From Bacteroidota bacterium (GTDB lineage Bacteria > Bacteroidota > Bacteroidia > Chitinophagales > Chitinophagaceae): a DNA stretch of 42,609 nucleotides. Positions 9,304-26,699 of this stretch are shown in pieces. Every line of letters starts with the position of its first letter. Positions within the stretch are counted from its first letter, which is position 1. Where the stretch lies: contig JANYIM010000054.1 of NCBI GenBank assembly GCA_025362055.1, forward strand, positions 1-42,609, read 5' to 3'. The translations under genes were made by a program, and so were the position numbers. The notes under the pieces were generated by a model. It did no database searches, was not told the DNA's origin, and saw only the letters and a program-made list of their open reading frames with translations.

Positions 9304-10713
9304 ATGAAGAAATACGCATTCCTTTATTGCTTATTGCCTCTTGCCTGTTGCCTGTTATACAGTTCCTGTAAAAAAGATTCTTTCATCACAAGTGCCGATG
9401 CCAGATTGAACATTACTGCAGATTCTTTAAAATACGATACCGTTTTCACTACAACCGGTTCTATAACAAAATCATTTAAGATCATCAATGCCAATGATCA
9501 GAAACTAAAGTTGAGTAAAGTAAAATTAATGGGGGGTGTAGGATCGGCTTATAAAATGAATGTAGATGGTTCAGCTACTACTGAGGTAAGTGACCTGGAA
9601 ATTGCAGCCAATGACAGTATCTATGTTTTTGTTTCCGTTACCATCAACCCCAATGCAATCAATCTTCCCTTTATTGTTTCAGACAGTATACTCATCAGTT
9701 ATAATGGCAATAACCGTTTTGTGCAATTGCAGGCTTACGGGCAAAATGCCAATTTTTTGCGTAACAGGGTAATTACCGGAAATACAATCTGGGCCAACAA
9801 CTTACCCTACGTAATCCTGGGAAGTATCAGGGTTGACACCACCGCTTCTTTAACCATCCTGCCCGGTTGCAGGATCTATTCTCATGCCGATGCGCCTTTT
9901 ATTATTGATGGCACATTGATCATTAACGGAACCAAGACAGATAGTGTGGTATTTGCAGGCGACAGGCTGGATGCAGATTATAAGGACCTTCCCGCAGGCT
10001 GGCCCGGGCTTTATTTTCGCGGCACCAGCAAAAACAATGTGCTCAAATACGCCATCATAAAAAATGCTTACCAGGCTCTCGTTGCAGAAAAGCCTTCATC
10101 AAATGCCAACCCTAAGGTGATCTTGCACCAATGTATCATTGACAATGCTTATGATGCAGGGATACTTTGCGTAAATACCAGCCTGCAGGCCGATAACAGC
10201 CTTGTGAGTAATTGCGGAACCAATATTGCCTTAACATACGGTGGCGATTACACGCTTACGCATTGCACCGTTGCCGGCTATTCAAATTATTTTGTTTCGC
10301 ATAAAACACCCGTGTTATCGGTCAATAATTTTACACAGCAGAACGGCACCCTCCTTACTGCCAATCTGAATGCAATTTTCCGTAACTGCATTTTTTGGGG
10401 AGATGGGGGTTTTGTAAATGATGAGGTATCCGTTACCAAACAGGGCGCTACTCCTTTTGCTGTTTTATTTGATAAAAATATTTACCGCGTAACCGCCGAT
10501 CCAACCAACAGCACCCTCAGCGGGAATATTAAAAACCAGGATCCTTCCTTCGACAGCATTGATGTATATAAACAGATCTATAATTTCAGGATAACAAAGA
10601 ATTCATTGGCCCCAGGCATCGACAAAGGCACCCCAACGGGCTTTCCGAAAGACCTTGATAACAATAACCGTAATAACGGCTTGCCAGACCTGGGTTGTTA
10701 TGAGAAACAATAA
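9304..10713 (+). CDS. Lipoprotein with parallel beta-helix and choice-of-anchor Q-like end
   Basis: A 469-residue surface or periplasmic lipoprotein. The signal peptide MKKYAFLYCLLPLACCLLYS ends in a lipobox with Cys22 (YSSC), followed by KKDS. An N-terminal beta-sandwich-like region (about 30-150) is followed by a right-handed beta-helix-type stretch with repeating short strands (LTILPGCRIYSHADAPFIID, FIIDGTLIINGTKTDSVVFAG, LKYAIIKNAYQALV). The end, PGIDKGTPTGFPKDLDNNNR...DLGCYE, is the pattern named choice-of-anchor Q in this phylum. The signal-peptide codons are built from a heptameric DNA repeat. The role is unknown; many relatives bind or process polysaccharide. Confidence 0.85.
   Translation: MKKYAFLYCLLPLACCLLYSSCKKDSFITSADARLNITADSLKYDTVFTTTGSITKSFKIINANDQKLKLSKVKLMGGVGSAYKMNVDGSATTEVSDLEIAANDSIYVFVSVTINPNAINLPFIVSDSILISYNGNNRFVQLQAYGQNANFLRNRVITGNTIWANNLPYVILGSIRVDTTASLTILPGCRIYSHADAPFIIDGTLIINGTKTDSVVFAGDRLDADYKDLPAGWPGLYFRGTSKNNVLKYAIIKNAYQALVAEKPSSNANPKVILHQCIIDNAYDAGILCVNTSLQADNSLVSNCGTNIALTYGGDYTLTHCTVAGYSNYFVSHKTPVLSVNNFTQQNGTLLTANLNAIFRNCIFWGDGGFVNDEVSVTKQGATPFAVLFDKNIYRVTADPTNSTLSGNIKNQDPSFDSIDVYKQIYNFRITKNSLAPGIDKGTPTGFPKDLDNNNRNNGLPDLGCYEKQ
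9327..9354 (-). repeat. Heptameric repeat encoding the lipoprotein signal peptide core
   Basis: Four consecutive 7-bp units (TTGCTTA, TTGCCTC, TTGCCTG, TTGCCTG) lie inside the signal-peptide coding region. On the opposite strand they read CAGGCAA-like, the same unit as the AGGCAAC repeats in holB. They encode the hydrophobic core CLLPLACCLL. Confidence 0.75.
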
Positions 10714-11383: not shown

Positions 11384-11417
11384 GCATTCTGTAATCCATG
11401 ATTCGGGATGCTTTTTT
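11384..11417 (+). terminator. Rho-independent terminator after the glutathione peroxidase gene
   Basis: GCATTCTG and CGGGATGC form an 8-bp stem with G-U pairs around a 12-nt loop, followed by TTTTTTA. The T tract runs directly into the -7 element of holB. Confidence 0.6.
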
Positions 11418-11433: not shown

Positions 11434-12669
11434 ATGCAATTCCAGTCCATCATCGGCCAAAAAGAAACCAAAGAACAGTTGGTTCAAATGGTACAGCATA
11501 ACCGGCTGAGCCATGCTTTGTTATTTTTAGGCAAAGAAGGAAACGGCGCTTTATCGCTGGCATTGGCATTTGCACAATATGTTGTTTGCGAAAACGCGAA
11601 TGGAAGAGAAGCCGCAAGTAGCAAGGCACAAGTAGCAACCGGGCCCTCTTTGTTTGGAGAACCTCAACCGCCAACGAGTAACGGGCAACGGCCAATGGCC
11701 AACGACTCCTGCGGCACCTGCCCTGCCTGTATCAAAGCCGGTCAGCTCATTCATCCCGATATTCATTTCACTTATCCTGTAATTACCAAAAAGCCAGGGG
11801 AAAAACCTGTTAGTGCCGATTTTATAAAAGAATGGAGGGGGTTCATTTCGTCTACCCCTTATGGTAATGTGTACGACTGGTTGCAGTTCATTGATGCAGA
11901 AAATAAGCAGGGCAATATCACTGCCAACGAATGCAATGATATCATCCGCAAATTGAATTTAAAAAGTTTTGAGAGCGAATACAAGATCCTCATCCTGTGG
12001 ATGCCCGAATTCCTGGGTAAAGAAGGCAATAAATTACTGAAGCTGATAGAAGAACCGCCATCCAATACCTTGTTCATTTTTGTAGCAGAGAATGAAGACC
12101 TTGTCCTTCCCACCATTTTATCCCGTTTACAATTGGTAAAAATTCCGGCATTGACCAATCTGGAAATAGAAGCCACGTTGGAATTAAAAGCCGGGCTTTC
12201 TATTGAAAAAGCACAACAGATCGCCGCAGTCAGCGAAGGCAATTACAGGGAAGCCCTGCAACTGGCTCAAAATGCTGAAGATGATTGGCAGGTATTATTA
12301 AGGGAATGGCTCAATGCCATCATTAAGACCGGCCCCCTGGCCCAGGTAAAATGGATCGAAGAAACTGCCAAACTTGGCCGGGAAAAGCAAAAACAATTCC
12401 TCAAATATTTTATCCACCTTCTTGAACAGGCTATACGCCTCAGGGTGATTGAGCCGGCTAACGGACAACGGGCAACAGGCAACGAACAGGATTTTGCCCT
12501 TCGGCTTAACAAGCTCTGTGACATTGGGCAACAGGAAGCCATTATTAACGAATTAGACCGGGCCAGCTATTATATTGAGCGTAATGCCAACGCTAAAATG
12601 CTTTTTCACGCCCTTTCCATCAGGTTATATCACATTATTAACAACAAATCATTAATTTTGGTGAATTGA
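11434..12669 (+). CDS. holB: DNA polymerase III delta-prime subunit, with repeat-derived insertions
   Basis: A 411-residue clamp-loader subunit of the replicative polymerase. I take the ATG at 11434 (MQFQSIIGQKETKEQLVQ); an in-frame ATG at 11398 would lie in the terminator. The P-loop is degenerate (GKEGNGAL), normal for delta-prime, which does not hydrolyse ATP. The zinc module has Cys52, then Cys93, Cys96 and Cys99 (CGTCPAC). In E. coli the first two cysteines are nine residues apart; here they are 41 apart because of an insertion rich in heptameric DNA repeats. A second repeat tract encodes EPANGQRATGNEQD near residue 345. The conserved LLKLIEEPPSNTLFIF segment is intact, so the protein is probably functional. 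Confidence 0.93.
   Translation: MQFQSIIGQKETKEQLVQMVQHNRLSHALLFLGKEGNGALSLALAFAQYVVCENANGREAASSKAQVATGPSLFGEPQPPTSNGQRPMANDSCGTCPACIKAGQLIHPDIHFTYPVITKKPGEKPVSADFIKEWRGFISSTPYGNVYDWLQFIDAENKQGNITANECNDIIRKLNLKSFESEYKILILWMPEFLGKEGNKLLKLIEEPPSNTLFIFVAENEDLVLPTILSRLQLVKIPALTNLEIEATLELKAGLSIEKAQQIAAVSEGNYREALQLAQNAEDDWQVLLREWLNAIIKTGPLAQVKWIEETAKLGREKQKQFLKYFIHLLEQAIRLRVIEPANGQRATGNEQDFALRLNKLCDIGQQEAIINELDRASYYIERNANAKMLFHALSIRLYHIINNKSLILVN
11614..11703 (+). repeat. Heptameric repeats inside the zinc-module loop of holB
   Basis: Two arrays lie in frame within the gene. Units at 11614-11641 are of the GCAAGTA type. Six consecutive units at 11662-11703 are of the GGGCAAC/GGCCAAY type (CCTCAAC, CGCCAAC, GAGTAAC, GGGCAAC, GGCCAAT, GGCCAAC). 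Together with a short spacer they account for most of the extra residues between Cys52 and Cys93. Confidence 0.8.
12456..12483 (+). repeat. Second heptameric repeat inside holB
   Basis: Four units (GGCTAAC, GGACAAC, GGGCAAC, AGGCAAC) are translated as part of the C-terminal domain (PANGQRATGNE). The units match the array at 11662-11703 in the same gene and, inverted, the one at 9327-9354. Confidence 0.78.
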
Positions 12670-23723: not shown

Positions 23724-26699
23724 ATGAAAAAATTCTTTACGCTTTTATGGCTTGCAATTGCCGCCTTCACTTTTAAGGCAACGGCACAGACAACTTCCTG
23801 TAATGCTAATTTTACAGCCCAGTTCGTAACAAACACAATGGTTAAGTTTAACCCGGTTACAACTGATTCGCCCATGGTGCAACACACCTGGACCTTTGGT
23901 GATGGCAGCCCGGTTAGTCACGCTGTTTCACCAACCCATACCTTTGCGGTGGGTGGTTATGCAGTTGTTCACACAATTGTGAGAGTGGGCACTAATGGAA
24001 CCGTCATCTGTACACAATCATTCACACTCCAGATTGTGATACAAGAATGTAACCTTGTGGTTGACTTTAGCTGGACGGTTGCTGCGGGTAACCCTTTAAC
24101 CTATGCATTTCAAAATCTAAGTGTGCCATTATCGTCAACAGATTCCATTACATGGACATTTGGTGATAACACCCAATCGCACGATGTAAATCCAACACAT
24201 ACTTACGCCAATTACGGCACATATAATGTTTGTCTTATCGTTAAGAAAAATGTGAGTGCAACCGCCTCCCCTTGTATAAAATATATATGCAAGAGCATTA
24301 CCTCAGTTGCGCCATGTACCCTTGTGGTTGATTTTAACTGGACAGTTTCTACCACCAATCCTTATACTTACGAGTTTCATAATTTAAGTACGCCTTTATC
24401 GCCTGCAGATTCTACAATATGGACTTTCGGTGACGGAACTTCATCAACTGCGGCGAACCCTACACATACTTACGCCAATGCAGGTTCCTATACCGTTTGT
24501 TTAACTGTAAAGAAAATGAGTACTGTTGCGGGAGCCCCACCTTGCATAAGATATACCTGTAAAACATTTACAGTAACATCTCCTTGTACGCTTGTAGTGG
24601 ACTTTAGCTGGAGTTCAAGCCCAACCAATCCATTGGTGGTAGCATTCCAGAATTTAAGTACGCCCTTGGCTCCAACTGATTCGATCACCTGGACATTTGG
24701 TGACGGAACTTCATCACATGATGTCAGTCCAACTCATACTTATACTACCGGAGGTTCTTATAATGTTTGTTTAACTGTAAAGAAAAACAATGCCGGCACT
24801 ACTGCTCCATGTATCAGGTATATCTGTAAAACAGTAGGAGTAACAACGCCTTGTAACCTGGTTGTGGACTTTAGCTGGACTGCAACTGCAAGCAATCCGT
24901 TGGTAGTAGCCTTCCATAATTTAAGTACGCCTTTGGCTTCAACAGATTCTATCACCTGGACATTTGGTGACGGAACCTCATCACATGATGTGAATCCAAC
25001 TCATACTTATACTACCGGAGGCTCTTATAATGTTTGTCTGATAGTAAAGAAGAATAACAGTAATGCTGCTCCATGTATAAGGTACATCTGTAAAACAGTT
25101 GTAGTAGCAAATCCTTGTAACCTGGTTGTAGACTTTAGCTGGACTGCAACTGCAACTAATCCGTTGATGATAGAGTTCCATAACCTGAGCACTCCATTAT
25201 CACCAACAGATTCTATTAAGTGGACATTTGGTGACGGGGGTACATCTATGGATGTTAATCCAACACATACTTATGCCAATTCAGGAACTTATAATGTTTG
25301 CCTGATCGTTAAGAAAAATGATAACCCTCCGGGTACCACTCCATGCATAAGGTATATCTGCAAAACAGTTGTTGTGCAGGCACCTTGTACACTGGTAGCC
25401 AATTTTTCATGGTTGGCAGCTACAACCAATGCACAAAATATACATTTCACCAATACTTCTTCGGCAGCTAATTCTACCGATTCAGTACGCTGGACATTCG
25501 GTGACGGAACTTCTTCCAACCAGTATAGCCCGGATCATACTTATGCTCAGCCAGGCACTTATAACGTTTGCCTGAGAATGCAAAAAAGAGGTACTAACGG
25601 AACAGTAACAAATTGTGTGAGTGAAATATGTAAGACAGTTGTTGTGCAATCAAGCTGTACTTTCCAGGCAAGCTGGACATCACATCCTGATTCAGTGAAC
25701 ACCAAGAAAATATACTTTACAAACACTACGATCTTACCAACTGCAACGGGAACGGCTATCTGGACATTTGGTGACGGAACAACAGCCACATCATGGAATG
25801 CAATTCATGAATATGCGAATGCAGGCAGGTATTATGTTTGTCTTCGTGTGGAAATAGCGCCTAATTGCGTACGTTACAAATGCGATTCTATTACGGTTAC
25901 CTTACCACCACCGCCATGTAACAATCAAAGTAATTTTACCGTGGTGGCAGCGTCGACCAATAGCCAAACCTTTACATTCACTCCAGCTTATCAAAGCAGT
26001 TCGGTTCAATACACCTGGTCATTCGGAGATGGAACCGGTAGCAGTACCATGATCGCCACACATCATTATGCACAGTCCGGCACTTATACTGCATGCCTTA
26101 CTGTATGGAGTAGCAATACCTGTGTTTCTACAACTTGTAAAACAGTAGTGGTAACGTCACAGATCAATTGCGATAGTATTCACGTATCATATACTTACCA
26201 GAGAGATCCGTTCATACCGAACAAAGTGTACTTCTATGCGAATGCCAATTTCCCAATACTGGATGAAACATGGACGATCACAAAGCTTCCTGCTGCAACA
26301 CCTCCTAACCAGGTAATACTGCACACAAACAATCCTGTGTATGTATTTAATGATACCGGCTATTACAATGTATGTTTAAGAGCTGTTACATTGGGTGGTT
26401 GTATCAAGGAATATTGCACGGTGATACATATTGAACAAGTACCTGCTCAGTGCCAGTTGACCGCATATCCAAACCCGGCAAGCACAGAGGTACATATAAA
26501 TGTAGCACTCACCGCTCCCGACATGATCAATGTTTATGTGTACAACAACTTAAATGTTTTAGTACTCGAAAAACATCAGCAAGGTGTCGTGGGCAATAAT
26601 GTAGTTACGCTTGGTATCGGAAGCCTTGTTTCAGGATTCTATACCGTGCGGTTGATCTATGGTAATCATTATTGTAATTCAGCGTTTCAGAAATTATAA
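23724..26699 (+). CDS. Large secreted PKD-repeat protein with type IX secretion C-terminal domain
   Basis: A 991-residue secreted protein. A signal peptide (ending TFKATAQ) is followed by nine canonical PKD domains, each with a W(T/S)FGDG-type motif and a THTY-type motif. The motif recurs every 255-270 bp (codons at 23889, 24153, 24420, 24690, 24957, 25221, 25491, 25761, 26016). A tenth, degenerate domain follows (TWTITKL...YVFNDTGYYNVCL). Each repeat carries conserved cysteines: one before LVVDFSW, one in VCL and two in PCIRYICK. They probably form disulfides outside the cell. The last 75 residues (YPNPASTEVHINV) are a type A sorting domain for the type IX system. It is a likely adhesin or scaffold; no catalytic domain is seen. 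Confidence 0.93.
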   Translation: MKKFFTLLWLAIAAFTFKATAQTTSCNANFTAQFVTNTMVKFNPVTTDSPMVQHTWTFGDGSPVSHAVSPTHTFAVGGYAVVHTIVRVGTNGTVICTQSFTLQIVIQECNLVVDFSWTVAAGNPLTYAFQNLSVPLSSTDSITWTFGDNTQSHDVNPTHTYANYGTYNVCLIVKKNVSATASPCIKYICKSITSVAPCTLVVDFNWTVSTTNPYTYEFHNLSTPLSPADSTIWTFGDGTSSTAANPTHTYANAGSYTVCLTVKKMSTVAGAPPCIRYTCKTFTVTSPCTLVVDFSWSSSPTNPLVVAFQNLSTPLAPTDSITWTFGDGTSSHDVSPTHTYTTGGSYNVCLTVKKNNAGTTAPCIRYICKTVGVTTPCNLVVDFSWTATASNPLVVAFHNLSTPLASTDSITWTFGDGTSSHDVNPTHTYTTGGSYNVCLIVKKNNSNAAPCIRYICKTVVVANPCNLVVDFSWTATATNPLMIEFHNLSTPLSPTDSIKWTFGDGGTSMDVNPTHTYANSGTYNVCLIVKKNDNPPGTTPCIRYICKTVVVQAPCTLVANFSWLAATTNAQNIHFTNTSSAANSTDSVRWTFGDGTSSNQYSPDHTYAQPGTYNVCLRMQKRGTNGTVTNCVSEICKTVVVQSSCTFQASWTSHPDSVNTKKIYFTNTTILPTATGTAIWTFGDGTTATSWNAIHEYANAGRYYVCLRVEIAPNCVRYKCDSITVTLPPPPCNNQSNFTVVAASTNSQTFTFTPAYQSSSVQYTWSFGDGTGSSTMIATHHYAQSGTYTACLTVWSSNTCVSTTCKTVVVTSQINCDSIHVSYTYQRDPFIPNKVYFYANANFPILDETWTITKLPAATPPNQVILHTNNPVYVFNDTGYYNVCLRAVTLGGCIKEYCTVIHIEQVPAQCQLTAYPNPASTEVHINVALTAPDMINVYVYNNLNVLVLEKHQQGVVGNNVVTLGIGSLVSGFYTVRLIYGNHYCNSAFQKL
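23889..26105 (+). repeat. Tandem PKD-domain coding repeats (about 267 bp period)
   Basis: Nine in-frame repeat units of 255-270 bp are visible at DNA level. The units starting at 24690 and 24957 are the most alike, with long identical stretches, which suggests recent duplication. Later units are more diverged. Confidence 0.85.

Follow-up and report, generated by a model that had tools for sequence, protein, structure and literature searches.

Recurrent heptamer arrays and a conserved [S/D]LFG motif in the zinc-module loop of HolB in the Chitinophagaceae

Introduction

The delta-prime subunit of the E. coli clamp loader, the product of holB, carries a four-cysteine zinc module in which about 8 residues lie between the first two cysteines. 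The corresponding interval is several times wider in holB of a Bacteroidota bacterium of the family Chitinophagaceae (assembly GCA_025362055.1, contig JANYIM010000054.1, positions 1 to 42,609, this whole stretch of 42,609 nucleotides being referred to here as the window), and short tandem repeats are found within it at the DNA level. A first-pass annotation, made from the letters alone, had proposed that tracts of 7-bp units were inserted into the loop and widened it, and that the loop is a tolerated target for such insertion. The locus thus raises the question of whether the repeats made the loop or have come to occupy one that was already there, and of what else the loop may carry.

The holB gene and the repeats of the window

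The following features of the window bear on this question; all lie on the + strand.

9324..9356, +, heptamer array (unit TTGCCTG) in the signal-peptide core of a 469-aa predicted lipoprotein encoded upstream, score 19.4
11434..12669, +, holB, delta-prime subunit of the clamp loader (Pfam PF13177 DNA_pol3_delta2, E 1.1e-35)
11587..11589, +, Cys52, first cysteine of the zinc module, from sequence reading and alignments
11614..11640, +, left arm of the loop, imperfect 14-bp duplication recognized by its period-14 score (the GCAAGTA tract of the first-pass annotation)
11641..11664, +, GPSLFGEP, conserved [S/D]LFG motif between the tracts, recognized by conservation in long loops
11665..11704, +, right arm of the loop, heptamer array with units AACGGGC, AACGGCC and AATGGCC (TRF period 7, 5.7 copies, 72% match)
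11710..11730, +, Cys93, Cys96 and Cys99, remainder of the zinc module, invariant in a 25-row alignment
12455..12483, +, second heptamer array of holB, in a variable C-terminal loop (EPANGQRATGNEQ), period-7 score 13.2

The holB reading frame is open from an ATG at 11398, and the family start at 11434 was adopted. Numbering from the latter places the cysteines at residues 52, 93, 96 and 99, as had been reported, in a C-Xn-C-X2-C-X2-C pattern that forms a putative zinc module. Both the sequence and the fold of the protein are those of the DNA_pol3_delta2 family. More specifically, an AlphaFold model based on a 50-row alignment has a mean pLDDT of 84, and the Foldseek matches listed for it are clamp-loader subunits, with E. 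coli gamma/tau top-ranked and E. coli delta prime at rank 32 (1jr3_E) and rank 36 (1a5t). The window protein resembles E. coli delta prime (PDB 1a5t, 1jr3) in sequence family and in fold, but has 40 rather than about 8 residues between the first two cysteines, together with the motif. Model confidence within the loop is middling (55, 72 and 69 in successive ten-residue blocks), and the motif lies inside the 72 block.

The right tract is not reached by any of 2000 codon-order shuffles of holB; when the protein is held fixed, 114 of 2000 synonymous shuffles reach its score, which means that a large share of the signal comes from the amino-acid sequence. The C-terminal tract, for which TRF places a period-7 array at 12460-12484, is likewise matched by none of 2000 shuffles of the part of the gene that follows the loop. 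When the window was compared with itself at periods 4-13, a score of 14 was passed solely by period 7, at two places. The left tract was ruled out as a heptamer array, with 598 of 2000 shuffles reaching its period-7 score; its period-14 score is equalled by one shuffle in 2000. Tandem 7-bp units beyond chance are found in the right and C-terminal tracts and not in the left. The original observation of two 7-bp tracts in the zinc loop is thus partly confirmed, since it holds for the right tract and fails for the left, and it had included neither the C-terminal tract nor the GPSLFGEP sequence between the two loop tracts.

The upstream array lies in a gene spanning 9304-10713, and TRF identifies period 7 at 9334-9356. 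A related genome (G022), whose HolB is 78% identical, has a period-7 tract at each of the three positions that carry one in the window, built from other units. Its orthologue of the 469-aa gene carries a different heptamer, TTTTTGC, at the same signal-peptide site, and AACCACA and AACGAAC are the units in its zinc and C-terminal loops. No signal-peptide tract was found in six other orthologues with a readable start (L224, L218, L211, L222, L213 and L220). A repeat of another kind occupies 24546-25371 of the window, where a 267-bp unit is present in 3.1 copies with 80% matches.

A long loop with or without repeats

A HolB match was found in 58 of the 59 nearest genomes, some of the weak matches being probably to the paralogue DnaX. 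In a family sample, 187 of 195 genomes reach 1e-60 against the HolB profile, and the eight that do not are 60-79% complete; one scan of named genomes yielded 80 loci. The set used for comparison holds 118 rows after removal of duplicates by identical loop or protein: 33 are genus rows (L021-L053), 75 are named rows, and the remaining 10 represent nine further families within the order. Row L054, which contains a masked stretch (N), was excluded from the counts, and the truncated L055 was left out of the motif and zinc tallies, the tree, the whole-gene scan, the length test and the motif shuffling. The named rows, some of whose titles say only Bacteroidetes, are assigned to the Chitinophagaceae on the ground that they cluster with the genus rows and apart from the other families.

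A long region (at least 36 residues) is present in 100 of 108 Chitinophagaceae rows, whether or not these have a tract, and the loops of these 100 rows span 26-47 residues as cut for the motif test. All 33 rows of the genus set are long, while a tract is found in six of them and none in the other 27. In the ten rows from nine other families, the spacing of the first two cysteines is 8 residues, and the short loop of L114, a row titled Ferruginibacter that also lacks the motif, indicates that short forms do occur nearby. Among rows with both the zinc pattern and the motif, the median region length is 50 for the 11 with a tract and 48 for the 53 without (P=0.086); the longest regions are two with a tract at 60 residues and one without at 61. 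Because region length is similar with and without a tract, the tracts do not explain the width of the loop. The spacing of 41 residues from Cys52 to Cys93 is real but is not accounted for by the tracts, and the repeats as the cause of a widening from 9 to 41 residues were rejected on the evidence of the relatives' loops. Insertion as a single event is unlikely, and turnover within an older loop fits better. The view that the region might instead be an old protein feature shared among relatives holds for the loop and its SLFG core and fails for the arms, which are not conserved as protein; in some species, including that of the window, the arms are DNA repeats.

A conserved motif that outlives the zinc site

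The loop is long throughout most of the family, and one element within it is conserved. Of 100 long loops, 88 contain the sequence [SD]LF, as compared with a mean of 1.4 and a maximum of 6 in 300 shuffles, and LF occurs in 97 of 100 as compared with 8.6 expected by shuffling. The phenylalanine is followed by G in 84 of the 97 rows having the motif. Across 20 further genomes from 19 genera, hand-picked among the matches listed and possibly overlapping the named species, [SDN]LF or SMF was found in all nine long loops and in none of the 11 short loops. The motif is dispensable in places, as eight of the 108 rows have no long loop and L099 is the sole long region without LF or MF.

The four-cysteine pattern is absent from 33 of 108 Chitinophagaceae rows, mostly members of one Sediminibacterium-type group and so not 33 independent cases, and the motif is retained in all 33. 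Parsimony on a quick tree, 38 of whose 115 inner branches are open, requires nine changes of the zinc state and six of the motif state. Retention of the motif after loss of the zinc cysteines suggests that it is not part of the zinc site. This conserved [S/D]LFG island outliving the zinc site is less familiar than the heptamer arrays, which are of a known kind as discussed below.

Two further observations concern the form of the loop. Two LF motifs can be found in one HolB loop, as in L231 (DLFGGGTDLFGA) and in L094 (DLFG and ALFDEE). In the Sediminibacterium-type rows among L104-L144, where the zinc cysteines have been lost, the former loop is now well conserved in its own right (VEDLFGGMTALEP onward), which would fit the acquisition of a fixed structure.

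Recurrence of heptamers in two loops of holB

The arms present a different history. When the zinc loops were scanned for periodicity (118 unmasked distinct loops), period 7 reached a score of at least 9 in 12, and at the same threshold the other periods from 4 to 13 gave period 4 in two loops, period 9 in one and the rest in none. Every one of the 12 tracts follows the LF motif, and in 10 cases the tract stops 2-13 bases short of the next Cys codon. Their units include AACGAGA, AACTATC, ACTCACG, AACATCT, AACCACC, AACCAGC and AACCTCA; one unit, AACAAGA, is found in the zinc loops of two species, and the units mostly differ between species. AAC stands on the coding strand in 10 of 12 typed units. 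None of the 12 tract loops interrupts the reading frame, and 11 of the 12 consensus units give stop-free arrays in the coding orientation. The remaining unit, TAACATC of L069, would encode a stop, and a hand reading of its array finds GTACATC where TAA would be in frame.

A scan of the whole gene in 118 holB sequences gave a best period-7 tract scoring at least 11 in nine genes, all at residues 80-86 or 345-347, seven being in the zinc loop and two in the C-terminal loop; the best tract per gene was taken, so that a gene with tracts in both loops counts once. Periods 5, 6 and 8-11 together gave two tracts in the same scan. Taken separately, the C-terminal loop has a period-7 tract scoring at least 9 in four of 118 genes. 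Placement of 11 zinc-loop tract rows on the quick tree, which was built without the loop, requires 10 changes by parsimony, suggesting that the tracts come and go or are often rewritten. With tracts in 12 of 118 loops and 10 changes on the tree, the description of the loop as a tolerated and recurrent target of heptamers is upheld. The first-pass interpretation is thus partly supported overall, in that the loop is a tolerated, recurrent site while the repeats are not the cause of its width.

Dispersed heptamer arrays in the genomes

The holB tracts appear to belong to a class of dispersed heptamer arrays, a kind already known. In the genome of the window, the loose class RRCAAYR gives 20 matches, whereas the reversed control gives 6. 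The 20 matches are spread over 11 places, of which one is the C-terminal tract of holB and 10 lie elsewhere. Stricter patterns are less productive in this genome. A search for (GCAAGTA)n with at most 2 mismatches, a pattern too strict to recover the left tract itself, found no array, and (GGGCAAC)n with 3 mismatches, which misses the zinc-loop tract, found only the C-terminal tract of holB. Close units of the holB tracts, sought with these strict patterns, are in holB only or nowhere, and the units may or may not have spread by copying.

Among the relatives, AACNNNN arrays are present in 35 of 36 genus genomes, and the reversed control is lower in 25 of the 36, equal in one and higher in 10. 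This control, like that of the search with the holB unit of G018, is weak because CAAC arrays and units identical when read backwards also match. The G018 holB unit is found at five other places of G018 and in five other genomes of the 36, and the G006 holB unit at one other place of G006 and in two other genomes. Units from one genome resemble each other more closely than units from different genomes do (0.630 versus 0.540, a result reached by 3 of 5000 label permutations for 26 tracts in six genomes), and this likeness leans largely on G011, which contributes 12 of the 26 tracts. Heptamer arrays of like kind are also found in intergenic DNA.

In 203 kb of the window's genome, including the window, five period-7 tracts score at least 12, as compared with 0, 1, 0, 0 and 0 in five Markov shuffles; periods 4, 6, 9 and 11 gave one tract each and period 15 gave three. 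Crude gene calling, under which 92% of the sample is coding, puts four of the five period-7 tracts inside ORFs. Four of the five also lie within the window, with one in the 161 kb outside it, and because the window had been chosen beforehand by the earlier reader, a tract density derived from it is biased.

For Xanthomonas (GGGAATC) and Nostoc (GGGGAYT), degenerate heptamers have been described that are scattered over many places, chiefly between genes but in some cases inside them, in both orientations and as inverted pairs (PMC4692102). In contrast to that account, the units here differ widely from species to species within one genus, most of them built on an AAC core, and they recur at orthologous loops of one replication gene. 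The TAACTGA direct repeats of Beggiatoaceae, Cyanobacteria and some Bacteroidetes are similar in that the heptamer contains AAC and in that intragenic copies are mostly at protein edges (PMC4679880). That system is portrayed there as one fixed unit located mainly upstream of starts (PMC4679880), whereas mixed units in internal loops of HolB are found here.

Some arrays of the relatives are notable for their arrangement. G011 has oppositely oriented heptamer arrays that face one another with a short spacer between them (L206:7304-7432, L205:15657-15704 and L207:10421-10491), some beginning about 5 bp past a stop codon and others ending 6-11 bp before a start, as judged from crude ORFs; inverted pairs have been described for the Xanthomonas heptamers as well (PMC4692102). 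In G030, an 84-bp array of GTGAAAA/GTAAAAA heptamers (L222:3948-4031) starts 7 bp past a stop, again by crude ORFs.

Evolution of the loop and its arms

These findings are probably best explained by an old tether that carries a selected short motif and whose free arms have been recurrently colonised by heptamers. The zinc-module loop of HolB would be an old and probably flexible tether of the Chitinophagaceae displaying the selected [S/D]LFG motif, which most likely docks on a clamp-loader partner, the beta sliding clamp being the best single candidate. The arms would need little beyond an open reading frame, a freedom from other function that we infer, and AAC-type arrays dispersed through the genome may repeatedly invade, extend and rewrite them, with birth and turnover of the arrays occurring presumably by slippage or by exchange among dispersed arrays.

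Alternatively, the arms may be selected as a polar protein linker rich in N, Q, T and P, of which the period-7 DNA would be a by-product. The tract peptides are indeed polar, and the synonymous shuffles that reach the score of the right tract agree with this explanation; however, the arm sequences are unconserved, period 7 is no multiple of the codon, other periods are hardly raised and similar arrays occur in intergenic DNA, so that a selected linker is an unlikely account, though it is the least unlikely of the three alternatives to heptamer colonisation weighed here. The earlier proposal, that heptamers widened the loop by recent insertion and that the loop is merely a tolerated site, draws on a tract that is real and in frame and on the two tract-bearing regions of 60 residues, but it must contend with a tractless region that is longer still, with nearly equal medians, with a genus set that is uniformly long and largely tractless and with a conserved motif in the middle of the loop. 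It appears largely refuted by the sequences of the relatives and is distinctly improbable. Least credible of all, and very nearly negligible, is the suggestion that the tracts are phase-variation switches of HolB. By arithmetic, gain or loss of one heptamer would shift the frame by one base, but the arrays are degenerate and short, the frame is open in every tract loop, and holB is expected from general knowledge to be essential.

The heptamers make holB, a replication gene, a natural experiment. Arrays of mostly different units recur in two of its loops, none having been seen elsewhere in the 118 genes scanned, and it should be possible to measure there how dispersed heptamers arise and turn over and what limits selection sets on them. 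Both this recurrence and the persistence of the [S/D]LFG island beyond the loss of the zinc site merit further attention.

The motif and the beta clamp

The identity of the partner on which the motif may dock is less certain. The clamp-binding rule as set out in a review consists of Gln, an aliphatic residue, any residue, L or M, and F or L, and to its authors' knowledge delta (AMSLF) is the only natural ligand named as lacking the Gln (PMC11139829). The [S/D]LF motif fits this rule at positions 3 to 5, with L or M followed by F or L. Residue tallies give neither Gln at position 1 nor an aliphatic residue at position 2, and the motif was not classed as a canonical clamp-binding motif. It is nevertheless comparable to QL(S/D)LF and to the likewise Gln-less AMSLF of delta, as these are given in the same source, in having [S/D], L or M, and F in a loop of a clamp-loader subunit; it differs from QL(S/D)LF in its missing Gln and aliphatic second residue, in its location in delta prime and in the G that follows (PMC11139829). 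Translesion polymerases of the genus do carry the Gln (QTNLF, QGNLF and the like), and delta of the genus has RYPMF in the 17 rows caught by the pattern.

In what follows, the subunit lettered E in one structural report is taken by us to be delta prime. Contacts with the clamp are ascribed in that report to subunits A, D and E (PMC11044049). For the closed E. coli clamp, the review cites one cryo-EM study with minimal contact by delta prime and another with substantial contact (PMC11139829). Since such contacts have been reported, a tethered motif on delta prime could, by analogy, reach the clamp.

Binding of the [S/D]LFG motif to the beta clamp is a possibility of lower confidence, at less than an even chance. 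Docking instead on delta prime itself or on another subunit of the loader or replisome comes closer to an even chance. The missing Gln at position 1 favors such a partner, as do the G that usually follows the F, for which the clamp rule does not ask, and the predicted model, in which the block with the motif has a confidence of 72 as compared with 55 for the block before it; against it stand the fit of L or M then F to the clamp rule and the one of the two E. coli cryo-EM studies that reports substantial contact of delta prime with the closed clamp, the other reporting minimal contact (PMC11139829). More tentative than either is the full proposal that in delta prime of the Chitinophagaceae a tethered clamp-binding motif without Gln takes the place of the short zinc-module loop, forming a second motif-type grip on beta, with a motif that would have outlived the zinc site in some lineages and arms kept in flux by genome-wide heptamer arrays. 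If the motif does bind the clamp, the loader of one bacterial family would have a second motif-type contact, located on delta prime, which would then be a further natural Gln-less clamp ligand besides delta, a prediction that is directly testable. A search by title and start of abstract, outside of which most subscription journals lie, found no paper on repeats in holB or on a clamp motif in delta prime.

The idea that the clamp-binding element of delta shifts together with the delta-prime motif was also considered and found not to be so. The comparison covered 20 genomes with 19 readable ORFs, 15 from the family and four from other families. Within the family, PMF is present in six of seven genomes with the delta-prime motif and in seven of eight readable ones without it, the exceptions being PVS in G191 (with the motif) and PVF in G072 (without). 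In the other families, delta has PMF in G037, PMM in G050 and G055, and PTF in G053. The HolA of G191 (L259) reads RYPVSADKQ where most have PMF, and the delta prime of this genome carries an SLF motif.
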